Shown here one piece after another: positions 19,144-48,073 of a stretch of 64,000 nucleotides of DNA. This DNA is from Planctomycetaceae bacterium (lineage in GTDB: Bacteria > Planctomycetota > Phycisphaerae > SM23-33). Under the pieces are notes generated by a model that was not told the origin of the DNA, did no database searches, and saw only the letters and a program-made list of their open reading frames with translations. The translations under genes and the position numbers were made by a program. How positions within the stretch are numbered: position 1 is the first letter of the stretch; every line of letters starts with the position of its first letter. Location of the stretch: the NCBI GenBank assembly GCA_039680605.1, contig JBDKTA010000071.1, forward strand, positions 1-64,000, written 5' to 3'.

Positions 19144-19895
19144 TTCCTTCCTACTCAATCGTCGTCGCCGTGGATCCCCGGACTGTCGATCAGTTGAAAC
19201 TGACCTGGCCGACGTGGCGGCGGAAGCCGGGGATTCTCGACGTGCCCATGCACGTGATCGTGGACGCTGGGTTGCTTCCACGCGACGCGAGCTACCAGGG
19301 CATCCTCGCACTCGACCATCCCAACGTCACGTATCACAATTGGAACTTTCCGTGGCTGGTGTTCCCGGACATGACCCAGCGGGAGCGGATGCTGTCGGCC
19401 TTCGTCTACTTCGCCCCGCTTCTCGTTGATACCGACTACTGGCTGAAGTTAGACGTGGACAGCGTGGCGACCGACGATAAGCCATGGGTTGACGAGGCGT
19501 GGTTTGCGCGGAATCCCGTGCTGGTGGCCCGCCCGTGGTCCTACACGAAGCCGGGGGAGTGGATCGACACGCTTCAGGCGTGGTCTCGCTCCAATCTCTT
19601 AACCAAGCATTATCCGCCGCTCGACTGGCCGCCCCACGACGAGACGAGGCAGGTTTACCGACATAGCCGAATCATTTCCCAGCAGTGTTTCGTGCAAACC
19701 GAATGGAGCCGGAGGGTGGCAGCTTACCTACAGCCCCGCCTGCCGGTCCCCAGCCAGGACACCATCCATTGGTATCTGGCCGAACTCCAGCGGCTGCCCA
19801 TCGTCAAGGCCCGCTTCCCCGGCTGGACGAACCGCTGCACGCGCAGGGGACTTGAGGAAGCGGTTGCCGGAGCAATTGCGGAGATGTTGCGATGA
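19140..19895 (+). CDS. Glycosyltransferase-like protein with DxD motif
   Basis: GTG 19140 overlaps the cupin stop. The 251-residue protein has a GT-A type core: an N-terminal SYSIVVAVD strand and a WLKLDVDSVATDDK segment (DxD around residues 104-106) expected to bind a nucleotide sugar and metal. The C-terminal part is basic with Trp-rich loops. No exact GT family can be set by eye. Confidence 0.6.
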   Translation: MIPSYSIVVAVDPRTVDQLKLTWPTWRRKPGILDVPMHVIVDAGLLPRDASYQGILALDHPNVTYHNWNFPWLVFPDMTQRERMLSAFVYFAPLLVDTDYWLKLDVDSVATDDKPWVDEAWFARNPVLVARPWSYTKPGEWIDTLQAWSRSNLLTKHYPPLDWPPHDETRQVYRHSRIISQQCFVQTEWSRRVAAYLQPRLPVPSQDTIHWYLAELQRLPIVKARFPGWTNRCTRRGLEEAVAGAIAEMLR

Positions 19896-20578
19896 ACGTC
19901 GAGCTAAACATCACCATGCGGTGCAATTGTGCCTGCCCGGGCTGCAACCGCCTCATCCCGCAGTACCCCGAGCGTACCGAGGACATCGACCCGGCAGCCG
20001 TCGAGCAGTTCATTGCCGAGGCCAAAGAGCACGGCCACGTCAACCGCGTCAAGGTGGTAGGCGGCGAACCGCTCTTGCATCCGCAGTTCTCCCGCATCGC
20101 CGAGATCCTAGCGGATGGCATCCAGCAGGGGGCGATCCAGAGCGTGAAGATCGACACCAACGGCACGCTGCCTAAGCCGCCCCTGCCGGCAGTCCCGGGC
20201 ATGCGGTACGCCGGGAGGCAGCCGGGCGCCAAGCGGCACCTGCCCTTCCTGCACTCGCCGATCGACCTGGGGCATGCTGTTGTCGGCCCGTGTTCCATGC
20301 CCTTTCGTTGCGGGGTGTCCCTGGATGCCCGCGGCTGGCTGCCCTGCTCATCGGCAATCATGATTGCCCGCCTCTTCGGCTGCGAGCATCTCTACCGCCA
20401 GCACCTACCGGCCGCCGCTGACTGGGGATTCGAGGAACTGTGTCCCGATTGCGCCTTCGCCATGCCGGCCGCGTGGAGGGCGGAGCACGCCAAGGCATTG
20501 CGGGACTTTACCGAGGAAGATAGGACGCCCAGCGAACGATGGAAAGCGAGATTATGGTCCGATACCACAAAACCCTGA
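19892..20578 (+). CDS. Radical SAM protein with SPASM-like C-terminus
   Basis: ATG 19892 overlaps the previous stop by four bases. The [4Fe-4S] motif is CNCACPGC (Cys 11, 15 and 18, spacing CX3CX2C), followed by a VVGGEPLLH motif. The C-terminal half has extra cysteines (GPCSM, RCGV, LPCSS, LCPDC) like the SPASM/twitch extensions of peptide- or glycan-modifying enzymes. At 228 residues it is short for the family. Operon position suggests a substrate shared with the neighbouring transferases. Confidence 0.8.
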   Translation: MNVELNITMRCNCACPGCNRLIPQYPERTEDIDPAAVEQFIAEAKEHGHVNRVKVVGGEPLLHPQFSRIAEILADGIQQGAIQSVKIDTNGTLPKPPLPAVPGMRYAGRQPGAKRHLPFLHSPIDLGHAVVGPCSMPFRCGVSLDARGWLPCSSAIMIARLFGCEHLYRQHLPAAADWGFEELCPDCAFAMPAAWRAEHAKALRDFTEEDRTPSERWKARLWSDTTKP

Positions 20579-21859: not shown

Positions 21860-22602
21860 TGTTCATTCAAGGATTGTGGGGAGACGAACGATTCCGCCGC
21901 TACGTCAAGGTGCGGGGCGACGTGGAGCGGGCCGCATCGAGACCCCTGCGCCCGGCACCCGTGACCGTGCTTTGCTACGGCCTCGACAACCTGGCCTTTC
22001 TTCGCGGACTTGGCTTCCAGGCGATCTGCATCCACCCCGAGCCGGTCCAGAATTACAGCGGCCACGACGTCGACCGCGACCATCGCCAGGATTACACGGG
22101 CTCGATTGCCTACGGGATTTCCTCCTGGCGACACAAGCTGGAGGTCATCCTGTCGGCCGTCGAGGAATTCAAGGAGGTTGTATGGTTGGATTGGGACTGC
22201 ACCCTAGAACTGCCCTTGCCGGGCGATTTCTGGAAAGAACTCCGCCGGCAGCAGCCCCTGCAGATGGGCCTGCGCTGGTATCGGCGGCCTCAATGCGGCT
22301 GGCGCGAAAGCGACCAAAAGCTACTTCCCCACGGCGCCTGGATCTACTGTTGCGACCCGCAGATCATCCGCGATGTGATCGCCATCCACTCCACCCTCGC
22401 CGACGGCCTATGCATGGATGAACACGCCTTCGCCATGTGGTTCGACCAGCAGCTTGGCGGGTGGAAAGGGATCGAAGCCTACCGATCGGCCGGCTATGCC
22501 CCGCGCTACTACGCCCCCCCCACCTTGCCATATTTCCCCGAGGAGGCCGTTTTCTGCGAACGCCTGCCGGGGGTTGCCCGAGATAAGGTTTTCAAGCGAT
22601 GA
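21856..22602 (+). CDS. Glycosyltransferase-like protein, tandem copy B
   Basis: ATG 21856 overlaps the stop of copy A. It shares the order of conserved blocks with copy A, including VWLDWDCTLE (DxD around residue 111), then DEHAFAMWFDQQLGGWKG. Lengths are almost equal (248 and 244 residues). Divergence is spread evenly, which fits an old tandem duplication with altered acceptor choice. Both copies retain the acidic motif, so neither looks inactivated. Confidence 0.65.
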   Translation: MMFIQGLWGDERFRRYVKVRGDVERAASRPLRPAPVTVLCYGLDNLAFLRGLGFQAICIHPEPVQNYSGHDVDRDHRQDYTGSIAYGISSWRHKLEVILSAVEEFKEVVWLDWDCTLELPLPGDFWKELRRQQPLQMGLRWYRRPQCGWRESDQKLLPHGAWIYCCDPQIIRDVIAIHSTLADGLCMDEHAFAMWFDQQLGGWKGIEAYRSAGYAPRYYAPPTLPYFPEEAVFCERLPGVARDKVFKR

Positions 22603-23534
22603 ACACGGAAGCCATCGTCAGTAGCGGTCAGAAGCTGCTCTATAACGCCGACACCCTGATCCGTACCCGGGCCGGCCACGCCTGTCCGGTGATGATGCAT
22701 GTCTGCTTGACGAACGCCTGCCAGCTCAAGTGCCCGTTTTGCTGCTATGCCGATCGGCCTGAGGGGATCCTGCCTATCAACAAGCTCTTGAAGTTTGCCG
22801 ACGCCTGCCGGGAACTCGGCTGCACAACCTGGGAGCTGACCGGCGGAGGCGAGCCGCTCCTGCACCCCAAGGTGAACCTCCTATTGTGGACGCTCCGCCT
22901 CTACGGCTTCTCGGTGGGCATCATGACCAACGGCCTGGCTCTCGATCGCCTCGACGATCCGGCCTTCCCGCGCTGGATTCGCGTCAGCCTGCACGCCATC
23001 GAGCAGGGGCTGGGGCCGCGGCTGGCAAAGCGGATTGCCCGTGTCCGCGAGGCGACCCGCGTAAGCGGCTGTTTTGTGGCCACCGAGGAGAACTTCCACC
23101 TTTTGCCCGAGGTCATCGCCTTCGCCCGCGACAACAACCTGCCGGTGAAGGTCGAGCCGAACTGCTTCGCTTCTCCTGGCGTGGTCCTGGCACTGGTCGA
23201 GCGCCTTAAACCCGCCCTTGCCGGCCAGGACCACGTTTTCCTCGACTTCAGCACGACCCTGGAGCAGCACGCCGGCCCGTGCTACCTGCACGTCATCAAG
23301 CCTTTCCTTTATACGGATGGCTGGTTGTGCGATTGCCCGCTGCCCGTGGGGCCGGCCCGGACGATCGACCCCGAGTTCCGCTTGTGTCGCATGGAGAACG
23401 TGCTGGACTACTACCGTGGCCTGACGGCCAAGACGCTGGCCCGCAGCCATGCCTGCGCTTTCTGCCGCTACGCCGACCACAACGACGTCGCCAACGCGAT
23501 CCTGAATCCCCTGCCCGACAAGGAGTTTTGCTGA
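22599..23534 (+). CDS. Radical SAM protein with Cys-rich C-terminus
   Basis: ATG 22599 overlaps the previous stop by four bases. The 311-residue protein has the radical SAM signature CQLKCPFC (Cys 41, 45 and 48, spacing CX3CX2C), a TGGGEPLLH block, and C-terminal cysteine pairs (CDCPLP, CRMEN, CAFCRYADH) that resemble SPASM auxiliary cluster sites. It differs clearly from the first radical SAM gene, so it is a separate enzyme rather than a copy. Confidence 0.85.
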   Translation: MNTEAIVSSGQKLLYNADTLIRTRAGHACPVMMHVCLTNACQLKCPFCCYADRPEGILPINKLLKFADACRELGCTTWELTGGGEPLLHPKVNLLLWTLRLYGFSVGIMTNGLALDRLDDPAFPRWIRVSLHAIEQGLGPRLAKRIARVREATRVSGCFVATEENFHLLPEVIAFARDNNLPVKVEPNCFASPGVVLALVERLKPALAGQDHVFLDFSTTLEQHAGPCYLHVIKPFLYTDGWLCDCPLPVGPARTIDPEFRLCRMENVLDYYRGLTAKTLARSHACAFCRYADHNDVANAILNPLPDKEFC

Positions 23535-29058: not shown

Positions 29059-29087
29059 TTGACGTGCTAAGAGCGGAGTGCTATAAT
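29059..29087 (+). promoter_or_regulatory. Strong sigma70-type promoter
   Basis: TTGACG (29059-29064), a 17-base spacer and a perfect TATAAT (29082-29087) preceded by TGC (extended -10). It lies in the 147-base gap before the small gene at 29108 and should drive the run of small genes to the terminator at 30557. It is the closest match to consensus in the window. Confidence 0.8.
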
Positions 29088-29107: not shown

Positions 29108-29311
29108 ATGGCCACCATGAAACGATTCACGCGAACGGCGATCGACACGCGAGGCTGTGAATTCCGCTACACCGCTTGTCTCGGGCCGCGTGACTGGCGT
29201 ATCGGGCCGAACGGGATGCTCGAAGAGGTCCGGGAGTGCCGGTACGAGGCGATGGGGGTCGTGGCTGAATCGCTCGCCGAACTCAAACGCAAAATCGGAG
29301 AGTTACCGTAA
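29108..29311 (+). CDS. Hypothetical small protein (67 aa)
   Basis: ATG 29108 has GGAG upstream (29099-29102) and lies 21 bases after the -10 box. The protein is basic with a middle RDWRIGPNGMLEEVRECRY segment and a helical C-terminus. No family is recognised. First gene of the small early-type operon. Confidence 0.6.
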   Translation: MATMKRFTRTAIDTRGCEFRYTACLGPRDWRIGPNGMLEEVRECRYEAMGVVAESLAELKRKIGELP

Positions 29312-29348: not shown

Positions 29349-29549
29349 ATGGCGAAACCGAAGCTAGAAGCCCAGCCCGCTTACGAGAGCGCCCACATGG
29401 TGGCGACCGACCTCCTGGCCCACATCGGCGAACTGCTCCAGGACATGCCGGCCCCCGATGGCGAGGTCACAATCAACTGGGGCCACGTCGGCTCCCTGGC
29501 CGAGGTCAACGGCAAGCTGGCCGAGATCATTGCCTTCTTGACCCGCTGA
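29349..29549 (+). CDS. Hypothetical small helical protein (66 aa)
   Basis: ATG 29349 follows AAGGGAAG. The protein is helical and acidic (SAHMVATDLLAHIGELLQDM) and ends at TGA 29547-29549, which lies inside the CTGATGA core of the hammerhead ribozyme. Thus its mRNA would be cut 39 bases after the stop. No family is recognised. Confidence 0.65.
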   Translation: MAKPKLEAQPAYESAHMVATDLLAHIGELLQDMPAPDGEVTINWGHVGSLAEVNGKLAEIIAFLTR

Positions 29550-29598
29550 TGAGGCTGGAGGCGTCCAGCCGAAACCCCGCGAGGGGTCCGGGATGCAA
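29538..29598 (+). ncRNA. Hammerhead ribozyme (type I layout)
   Basis: The full conserved core is present: CTGATGA (29546-29552), stem II of 7 pairs (29553-29559 with 29564-29570, loop GGCG), GAAA (29571-29574), stem III closed by A29574-T29587 plus four C-G pairs (29575-29578 with 29583-29586, GCGA tetraloop), and the cleavage triplet GTC ending at C29588. Stem I is CCCG 29542-29545 with CGGG 29589-29592, then after a small internal loop TTG 29538-29540 with CAA 29596-29598. All invariant positions of the known fold are met, including G10.1-C11.1. Predicted self-cleavage follows C29588, splitting the early mRNA between the genes at 29349 and 29646. Loops of stem I and II could make the usual tertiary contact. 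Confidence 0.88.
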
Positions 29599-29645
29599 CG
29601 AACTTGAAACCTGAACCACGAACCACGAACCAGGAGAAAAAACCG

Positions 29646-29834
29646 ATGAAGACTTCCGTATCGATCACCTGCCGGGGATGCCACGTCACCACCACCGACA
29701 GCCCGACAGTTTTCCGCGTCAACCTGCTGCACCTCAAGAGCACGGGCTGCCGTTCTGTAATCCTCACCGGGACCGTCCTCGGATCGCCGGTCTCGGGTGA
29801 ATACGATATCGACGCTGCCTTGATGCTTGTCTGA
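29646..29834 (+). CDS. Hypothetical small protein (62 aa)
   Basis: ATG 29646 follows AGGAG (29632-29636). The product has an N-terminal CRGC pair and beta-rich remainder. It is the first gene after the hammerhead cleavage site, so its transcript would begin with a 5'-hydroxyl leader of about 57 bases if cleavage occurs. No family is recognised. Confidence 0.6.
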   Translation: MKTSVSITCRGCHVTTTDSPTVFRVNLLHLKSTGCRSVILTGTVLGSPVSGEYDIDAALMLV

Positions 29835-29884: not shown

Positions 29885-30319
29885 GTGCTTTACCGCAACA
29901 ATAACGACGCATACGGCGCAGCAGGCCCTTTTGAGGCCGAATCGCTGAATGCCGTAGTCGAGAACATGATGCCTGCATTCCGCGAGTGGGCTGGTGACGA
30001 GTGGCAGATGCACGCTGAGATGTGCCGGGATACCGATACCGACCCCGGCGATGAGGACAAATTCCGCGATGCCGCAATCGATCGCATGCGCGCCGAGTGC
30101 TTGGCCGGCTTGGAGGTCATCACCCCAACAAACGCCGAAAGCCGCCGTTACGAACCGGACGAGGCGGACGCGCGACTCCGCGATGCCGCACCGGACCTGC
30201 TGGCGGCGTGCCGAGAGGCGCTGTACTGGCTGGACCCGGATTCGCGCGGCGAAGAGGCTTGTGTGAAGATGATCATCGCCGCCATCGCCAAAGCAACAGG
30301 AGATCAGCCATGCAACTAG
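29885..30319 (+). CDS. Hypothetical early phage protein (144 aa)
   Basis: GTG 29885 has AAGGAGAACG upstream. The acidic protein ends with DLLAACREALYWLD and an IAAIAKATG helix, a pattern common in small phage early proteins of unknown role. It overlaps the next gene by 10 bases, so the pair is coupled. No function assigned. Confidence 0.6.
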   Translation: MLYRNNNDAYGAAGPFEAESLNAVVENMMPAFREWAGDEWQMHAEMCRDTDTDPGDEDKFRDAAIDRMRAECLAGLEVITPTNAESRRYEPDEADARLRDAAPDLLAACREALYWLDPDSRGEEACVKMIIAAIAKATGDQPCN

Positions 30320-30531
30320 GCCCTCGCCTTCGCGAACTTCGCCTCGCCGCCGGCCTCTCCCAGGAGCAGGCAGCCGCTGCCGCCGGCATCCCGCAGGCGA
30401 TGTGGAGCGGATACGAGCTCGACAAACGCTGGCCAGGGCGGGATATGATGGAGGCGCTGGCTCGCGGCGTGGGAGTGGAGCCGGCGGAACTGTTGCGGCC
30501 GGTGGGAAGCAAGGTGCCGGCGAAGCGGTAG
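30310..30531 (+). CDS. XRE/Cro-family DNA-binding protein
   Basis: The 73-residue protein is a nearly pure helix-turn-helix domain: LRELRLAAGLSQEQAAAAAG gives helices 1-3 of the Cro/CI fold, then an IPQAMWSGYELDKRWP recognition segment and EALARGVGVEP. It starts at ATG 30310 within the previous gene and ends before a terminator. Size and position suggest a Cro-like repressor of the early promoters; operators were not identified. Confidence 0.85.
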   Translation: MQLGPRLRELRLAAGLSQEQAAAAAGIPQAMWSGYELDKRWPGRDMMEALARGVGVEPAELLRPVGSKVPAKR

Positions 30532-30556
30532 GCACCGCGATCCGCGATTCACTCAG

Positions 30557-30582
30557 GCCCGGGAGACCGGGCTTTTTCTTTT
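30557..30582 (+). terminator. Rho-independent terminator
   Basis: GCCCGG (30557-30562) pairs with CCGGGC (30567-30572) across a GAGA loop, followed by TTTTTC and a second T-run. It ends the operon begun at the promoter at 29059. Confidence 0.9.
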
Positions 30583-31346
30583 TCTTGGCCATCTAAACCC
30601 CCACCCCGCCGCAACGATTCTCCCGATTCTATCGGACACCGTGGCTGTCTAGGATTTGCTTGGAGGCATAGAGGGCAGAACTGTGGGGCAACCGCGAGGC
30701 CCCCGCCGCCGAGCACCCTGCCTAGTGTGGTGCTTAGTGGTTCTGGCAGTTCGGCCCTCCGTGCATTTCTTGCTGTAGAAAATCGACGGCACTTTGTAGA
30801 CTCTGGGCAAATCCGAAAAAATGGTTGTTGACACGAAAAAACGCTTGTGGTAAATTCCCACTATTGCTGATGGAGAATCCAGAAAATTCCCTATCGGAAA
30901 AACCACTAGGCATCTTTGGCCGCTCTTCGGCCGACCTTGCCGCCGCCTGACTAGCGGTGCCCCACTACACCTTGCCAGGCGTACACCTTATTTATGCGCA
31001 GTCTAGTGGGCCGCCGTCCCGTTTCCCGCCTGTCAGTTGGCGGGAGCGGGCGGCGGTTATAAAGGCGGATGCCATGACTAACGAAACTTGCCCACGGCGT
31101 TATTTCCCCTGGCTCGTAGCCGACGGGACGCCGGACTGCGCGGCCGGTACTTTCCTCAAGGGCGGCCGCGCTTTTGAAAACGGAATCGTGACCCCGCGCC
31201 GCCTCGTCGGGGCTGGCCGTGTTGAAACGGGACGCGGCCAGGCATGTGAACTGGGCCGGCAGGCGAACGAGGCTGAGTTGACACGGGTTCGTCATTCTCC
31301 CTGTGCCAACAAAAGCCGGCCCCTCCTGTCAAGAAAGGACCAAACC
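30583..31346 (+). other. Long non-coding stretch with promoter and inverted repeats
   Basis: No convincing gene occupies this 764-base interval apart from a promoter (30828-30856). It holds inverted repeats: GGCCG/CGGCC at 30918-30932, CCCACTA/TAGTGGG at 30961-30967 and 31004-31010, and CCCGCC/GGCGGG at 31025-31044, none followed by a T-run. A frame from ATG 31075 is open into the gene at 31347, but the sequence looks poorly coding. It could be a structured leader RNA, an antitermination region, or decayed DNA. Confidence 0.6.
30828..30856 (+). promoter_or_regulatory. Promoter with consensus -35 and extended -10
   Basis: A perfect TTGACA (30828-30833), a 17-base spacer and TAAATT (30851-30856), preceded by TGTGG (extended TGn). 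The TGTGGTAAA string repeats that at 25731-25739. It would transcribe the long leader and the genes from 31347 onward. Confidence 0.75.
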
Positions 31347-35320: not shown

Positions 35321-35391
35321 GGGGCGGTAGCCCAATTGGAAGAGGTGGCCCAGGAAGGGCCTTGTTGCAGGTTCGAATCCTGCCCGCCCCA
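35321..35391 (+). tRNA. tRNA-like element with irregular anticodon arm
   Basis: Acceptor GGGGCGG (35321-35327) pairs perfectly with CCGCCCC (35384-35390) and the T-arm GCAGG-TTCGAAT-CCTGC (35367-35383) is perfect. The D-arm is weak (GCCC...AGGT) and the anticodon stem GGCCC/GGGCC would leave a 5-base loop; the alternative 4-pair stem gives a 7-base loop without U33. Length is 71 rather than 73 or more. It is probably a tRNA decayed in the anticodon region; its amino acid cannot be assigned. Confidence 0.45.
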
Positions 35392-48000: not shown

Positions 48001-48073
48001 CGCCGAGTGGAGGAGTTGGCACCTCGCCTGGCTCATAACCAGGAGTTCGCGGGTTCGAGTCCCGCCTCGGCCA
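48001..48073 (+). tRNA. tRNA-Met (CAT)
   Basis: D-stem GAGG/CCTC (48010-48013, 48022-48025) with loop AGTTGGCA, anticodon stem CCTGG/CCAGG (48027-48031, 48039-48043) with loop CTCATAA and anticodon CAT (48034-48036), T-arm GCGGG-TTCGAGT-CCCGC (48049-48065), acceptor GCCGAG/CTCGGC with one end mismatch, discriminator A48073. No CCA is encoded. U33 and the classic D-loop are present. It may also be an elongator or Ile-type CAU tRNA. Confidence 0.85.

Follow-up and report, generated by a model that had tools for sequence, protein, structure and literature searches.

Type I, II and III hammerhead ribozymes have been described in clusters between the genes of prophages, and some of them cleave in vitro and in Escherichia coli; a hammerhead triple from Agrobacterium cuts when expressed in E. 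coli (PMC3088659). It was proposed that these prophage ribozymes shorten long phage transcripts to mRNAs of operon or gene length (PMC3088659), and for bacterial and phage hammerheads the question of function is acknowledged to be open (PMC6155905). A limited literature search yielded no survey of phage hammerheads later than the 2011 work. The preliminary description of the locus treated here had noted that hammerheads are known in some phages, in agreement with the clustered prophage cases published in 2011 (PMC3088659).

The window analysed here comprises 64,000 nucleotides, positions 1 to 64,000 of contig JBDKTA010000071.1. The contig has 67,121 bases with a terminal overlap of 127 bases and therefore most likely represents a phage genome of 66,994 bp that is complete and either circular or circularly permuted; it sits binned within a bacterial assembly, and the window is a part of it. 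Its genes include those for a terminase large subunit, a primase and an AAA_24/Sak4-like protein, and among isolate phages solely distant relatives were found. No relatives of an 848-aa protein or of the 66-aa protein described below were detected in viral contigs. The phage also carries two tRNA genes (35321-35391, with a poorly modelled anticodon arm, and 48001-48073) and two proteins with radical-SAM-like cysteine motifs recognised by eye (19892-20578 and 22599-23534). The ribozyme lies in the middle of an operon, between the genes starting at 29349 and 29646 on the same strand, and a promoter-like site and a terminator-like hairpin bracket the unit:

29059-29087, + strand: strong promoter-like site of sigma-70 type, TTGACG-17-TATAAT with an extended -10 TG, 11 of 12 consensus matches, from a consensus scan only; the likely start of the transcription unit, as read from the sequence
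29108-29311, + strand: first gene of the unit, an ORF of 67 aa of no known family (no Pfam match)
29349-29549, + strand: second gene, an ORF of 66 aa with known homologues
29593-29645, + strand: U-poor leader of the predicted 3' product, with the ribosome-binding site AGGAG at 29632-29636 (from the sequence)
29646-29834, + strand: first gene 3' of the predicted cut, an ORF of 62 aa of no known family (no Pfam match)
29885-30319, + strand: ORF of 144 aa of no known family (no Pfam match)
30310-30531, + strand: 73-aa helix-turn-helix protein (HTH_31, Pfam E 1.1e-14)
30555-30574, + strand: intrinsic-terminator-like hairpin at the end of the unit, from a consensus scan only

Since the operon precedes the replication genes, it would be expressed early. 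A second promoter-like site (TTGACA-17-TAAATT, extended -10, 30828-30856) follows just after the terminator-like hairpin.

The preliminary description had placed a hammerhead with all core elements in order at this gene boundary, and the descriptor search returned its core and three stems at 29542-29592 (+); the coordinates given there are right, as is the predicted cleavage position after C29588. The 7-pair stem II and the stem III with a GNRA loop were likewise recovered, as was the stop codon of the upstream gene within CTGATGA. The elements are as follows:

29542-29592, + strand: type I hammerhead ribozyme (descriptor, covariance model with 79.4 bits, covariation)
29542-29545/29589-29592, + strand: stem I, 4 bp, CCCG/CGGG (descriptor)
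29546-29552, + strand: conserved core CUGAUGA, C3 to A9 (sequence)
29553-29559/29564-29570, + strand: stem II, 7 bp, GGCUGGA/UCCAGCC, with loop GGCG at 29560-29563 (descriptor, covariation)
29571-29573, + strand: core GAA (descriptor)
29574-29578/29583-29587, + strand: stem III, 5 bp, ACCCC/GGGGU, with tetraloop GCGA (descriptor, covariation)
29574 and 29587, + strand: the A15.1-U16.1 pair, A29574-U29587, within stem III
29588, + strand: C17, with cleavage predicted 3' of this base (core position, known hammerhead chemistry)
29593-29597, + strand: AUGCA, predicted 3' partner of loop II (subfamily AYGCA, loop/flank complementarity)

All core letters of a hammerhead are thus present, namely CUGANGA (29546-29552), GAA (29571-29573) and UH at the cleavage site (29587-29588), and three helices of 4, 7 and 5 bp, the A15.1-U16.1 pair included, are arranged around them. 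The descriptor matched the window exactly once. In 150 Markov-shuffled windows its loose version found one match and its strict version none. The bare letters CTGANGA...GAAA...GTC without pairing are expected 0.49 times per window and are not rare, so that the pairing is what counts. Neither further nor decayed copies were found in the window, the remaining contig or the host assembly, and no permuted type II/III forms were found in the phage contig. With a single copy across the whole 67-kb contig, this phage does not carry a ribozyme array.

The structure was further assessed with an alignment of ten subfamily members, including the window, in which 99.5% of the cells were paired. Compensatory changes occurred in five of the seven pairs of stem II and three of the five pairs of stem III, and the covariation score reached 0.442, compared with 0.118 for shuffles and no more than 0.069 for a slid structure. 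Stem I was invariant in this alignment, so its support consists of fixed complementarity only. Across the relatives the invariant letters are those of the catalytic core, and the hairpin sequences vary freely with compensation. A covariance model of the relatives and the window scored the site with 79.4 bits (E 3.7e-17, which is not an independent value because the model contains the site), and the second-best match in the window reached 15.2 bits and did not have the full core. By sequence and covariation, the hammerhead at 29542-29592 is real.

An outer helix of stem I, UUGC/GCAA flanking an internal loop, which had been suggested previously, lacks conservation. What is conserved instead is AYGCA immediately 3' of the 4-bp stem I, and in the subfamily it occurs together with loop II GGCG. 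The predicted pseudoknot pairs are G29561-C29596, C29562-G29595 and G29563-U29594. Where stem I of a hammerhead has 4 bp, loop II is complementary to its own 3' flank to a degree that none of 300 reshuffled flanks attained, and the 5' flank gave no such signal; hammerheads with a stem I of at least 6 bp showed no signal between loop II and flank. Complementarity thus predicts that the tertiary contact between stem I and loop II is made by loop II and the sequence flanking stem I on its 3' side, and this predicted pairing is the known hammerhead pseudoknot, of the type that Perreault et al. 2011 describe (PMC3088659).

With Rfam at gathering threshold, no ribozyme was reported in the window. 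A permissive scan of 29400-29750 returned one weak match, the RAGATH-1 hammerhead (RF03152; 15.9 bits, E 4.1), which is the best Rfam match and aligns with the core and stems, with a cut-off of 56.3 bits. Hammerhead_1 (RF00163) has the same topology, open at stem I, and the same core, yet the site was unreported by it even at E 10. Both curated models leave the site below their gathering cut-off, and intact relatives are missed too: in nine related phage loci, Rfam gathering scores recovered two of 36 hammerheads intact by descriptor, and 34 were overlooked. As its models miss nearly all members, Rfam annotation greatly underestimates this group. A missing Rfam match, named beforehand as a refutation, is therefore not valid as such.

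The GC-rich subfamily is defined by CCCG, CUGANGA, a stem II with GGCG loop, GAA, stem III, UC and CGGG-AYGCA. A broad scan of viral contigs with the pattern CTGATGAG..CGAAAC..GNRA..GTC, which is restricted to certain core letters, matched at least 120 stretches; all three stems form in 112 of 130 sites among the matches listed, and several of the remaining sites fail solely the strict rule of uninterrupted stems. A narrow pattern built on the window, CCCGCTGANGAG..GGCG..CGAAAC, demanded neither stem III pairing nor the 3' strand of stem I and found 34 sites on 28 viral contigs and 14 matches in cellular contigs. Stems I, II and III are complete in 33 of the 34 viral sites versus none of the 14 cellular ones, so the cellular collection serves as a built-in negative control; the single incomplete viral site (L141) shows small defects in its match to the covariance model. 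Isolate phages yielded no full subfamily match. The carriers have hardly any proteins in common with this phage, consistent with horizontal spread or with convergence.

Model matches of 37-38 bits in three genomes of the same bacterial class were rejected, as an intact core is absent. These matches (L168, L169, L170 and L171; one genome carries two of them) show CCCG...CGGGAYGC-like arms, a GC hairpin and broken cores. A pseudoknotted related hammerhead, unannotated there, was observed between two small genes of a Paenibacillus peoriae plasmid (L173, 2999-3066), and the phage contig L150 has hammerheads of both type I and type III within one region (about 6573, 6953, 7291, 8363 and 9820, strand-specific scan positions).

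For the position relative to genes, 181 distinct hammerheads on 107 contigs, the window included, were surveyed among the matches listed; 158 of them had enough flank. Simple ORF rules with an upstream ORF of at least 40 aa were applied, and some redundancy between contigs exists. An upstream stop codon lies at -20 to +14 of CUGANGA in 84% of these 158, compared with 13% at random positions of these contigs. The stop lies most often at +1, on the core TGA of C-TGA-TGA (31 of 158 among the matches listed; 30 of 118 when only ORFs of at least 60 aa are counted), and next most often at -3 (18), -8 (17), -9 (15) and -7 (14). The earlier claim that the overlap with a stop codon is unusual is accordingly wrong, a stop at this position being the most frequent single arrangement among the matches listed. 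Downstream, a ribosome-binding site and start codon occur in 96 of the 158 (61%) among the matches listed, at a median of 30 nt after U16.1, and the leaders are rich in A and poor in G (39% and 14%, versus 27% and 24% overall). Arrays of two to nine hammerheads were found on many contigs, mostly with one gene between successive ribozymes; they comprise nine copies in L108, seven in L032, six in L119 and four in L095, and L017, L044 and L115 likewise carry four to nine in successive gene gaps. Single copies occur in 70 of the 107 contigs among the matches listed, the loci being partial. The genes downstream of the hammerheads are mostly of no known function, and the matches obtained were ArdC-type anti-restriction, superinfection immunity, phage RNA polymerase and helix-turn-helix proteins.

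Homologues of the 66-aa protein encoded by the upstream gene occur in G099, a further genome of the class (61% identity), and in phage S-CBS1 (32% identity). The window protein ends ...FLTR-stop, and its last two codons ACC CGC together with the stop TGA (29547-29549) overlap stem I and the core. The G099 homologue ends ...FLEGTEE-stop, followed by TAACAACCAACCACGAAAGGAACC...ATG without a ribozyme, and the gene after it differs from the downstream gene of the window. The ribozyme is therefore a replaceable module and not essential to the upstream gene, and from this comparison it appears to supply the end of the upstream reading frame.

The ribozyme sits precisely on the boundary between two genes, and the mRNA is therefore probably cut there into pieces. 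We favour, with a probability of about 0.8, a type I pseudoknotted hammerhead at a gene boundary of an early-type phage operon, which cuts the mRNA after C29588 and uncouples its two halves. During transcription stems II and III would form first, stem I would then close, and loop II would dock with the AUGC just past stem I. By analogy to known hammerheads the RNA would cleave itself after C29588 and split the transcript of about 1.5 kb into pieces of about 0.5 and 1.0 kb, a separation of the genes at 29349 and 29646 that was also predicted in the preliminary description. The upstream product would contain two small genes, with the ribozyme hairpins and a 2',3'-cyclic phosphate at its end. The downstream product would contain three genes, including the one for the helix-turn-helix protein, preceded by a 5'-hydroxyl end and a short leader that has a ribosome-binding site of its own. 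The two halves would thereby be translated and degraded independently of each other, probably protected against exonucleases and the 5'-phosphate-dependent RNase E by the hairpin end and the 5'-hydroxyl. Points against this reading are the predicted masking of stem I in the naked mRNA, although composition accounts for its extent, the presence of only one copy in this phage, and the homologue of the upstream gene that lacks a ribozyme.

An unlikely variant is that folding is blocked by a ribosome on the upstream gene, either during translation or at termination, so that cleavage reports upstream translation. A terminating ribosome would, according to ribosome footprints, cover stem I and the core, and upstream stops fall on the core TGA more often than on any other single position (31 of 158 among the matches listed); the stops at -3 and -7 to -9 together outnumber it, however, which argues that the overlap is not required, and CUGAUGA by itself offers a stop in one of three frames. 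When naked RNA was folded, the upstream coding sequence masked stem I and lowered its probability from 0.89 to below 0.01. An anti-stem switch was nevertheless rejected: codon-shuffled upstream sequence masks stem I equally and most relatives behave alike, so the masking reflects composition, and that it is no stronger than in these controls speaks against gating by translation. It is equally doubtful that core-stop phage hammerheads in general are sensors of translation termination which cleave only where the upstream gene is untranslated; if so, they would set gene dosage along an operon without a protein regulator.

We give still less credence to a relic or passenger whose inherited fold cuts inefficiently in this phage. 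The single copy, the weak 3-bp pseudoknot with one G-U pair and the masking of stem I in naked RNA would fit it, but all catalytic positions are intact and stems II and III fully paired, where a relic would show broken pairs. That the hairpins only stabilise the 3' end or act as a signal in translation or transcription, with catalysis irrelevant, is very improbable: stems II and III are strong GC hairpins, but it is the catalytic core that is invariant and the hairpins that vary with compensation, and no U-run follows them. Chance resemblance, which the frequency of the bare letters (0.49 per window) might suggest, can practically be dismissed, as a match with pairing is not expected, the model gives E 3.7e-17 with the site included in it, and the same subfamily recurs on 28 viral contigs.

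The question of what bacterial and phage hammerheads do gains a concrete picture from the survey, in which a ribozyme a few bases from a stop codon is followed by a short A-rich leader in at least about 100 viral contigs. Such ribozymes often stand one per gene, some of the downstream genes being related to counter-defence, and this arrangement in a group missed by Rfam merits a systematic survey. Compared with the prophage hammerheads of Perreault et al. 2011 (PMC3088659), the ribozyme of the window has in common the core, the pseudoknot between loop II and the stem I side and the site between phage genes. Those ribozymes are on many occasions, though not always, present in several copies per operon, whereas the window contains a single one; further differences are its stop codon inside the core and its membership of a GC-rich group, marked by a 4-bp stem I, a GGCG loop and AYGCA, which matched no named group. 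HHphage of the haloviruses HF1 and HF2 likewise lies upstream of an early gene, and an RNA end was mapped at its cleavage site; it differs by a variant core and its occurrence in archaeal viruses, and is likened to the window by description (PMC3088659). The ribozyme of the window is thus well supported and not unprecedented, as many other phages carry hammerheads at gene boundaries.
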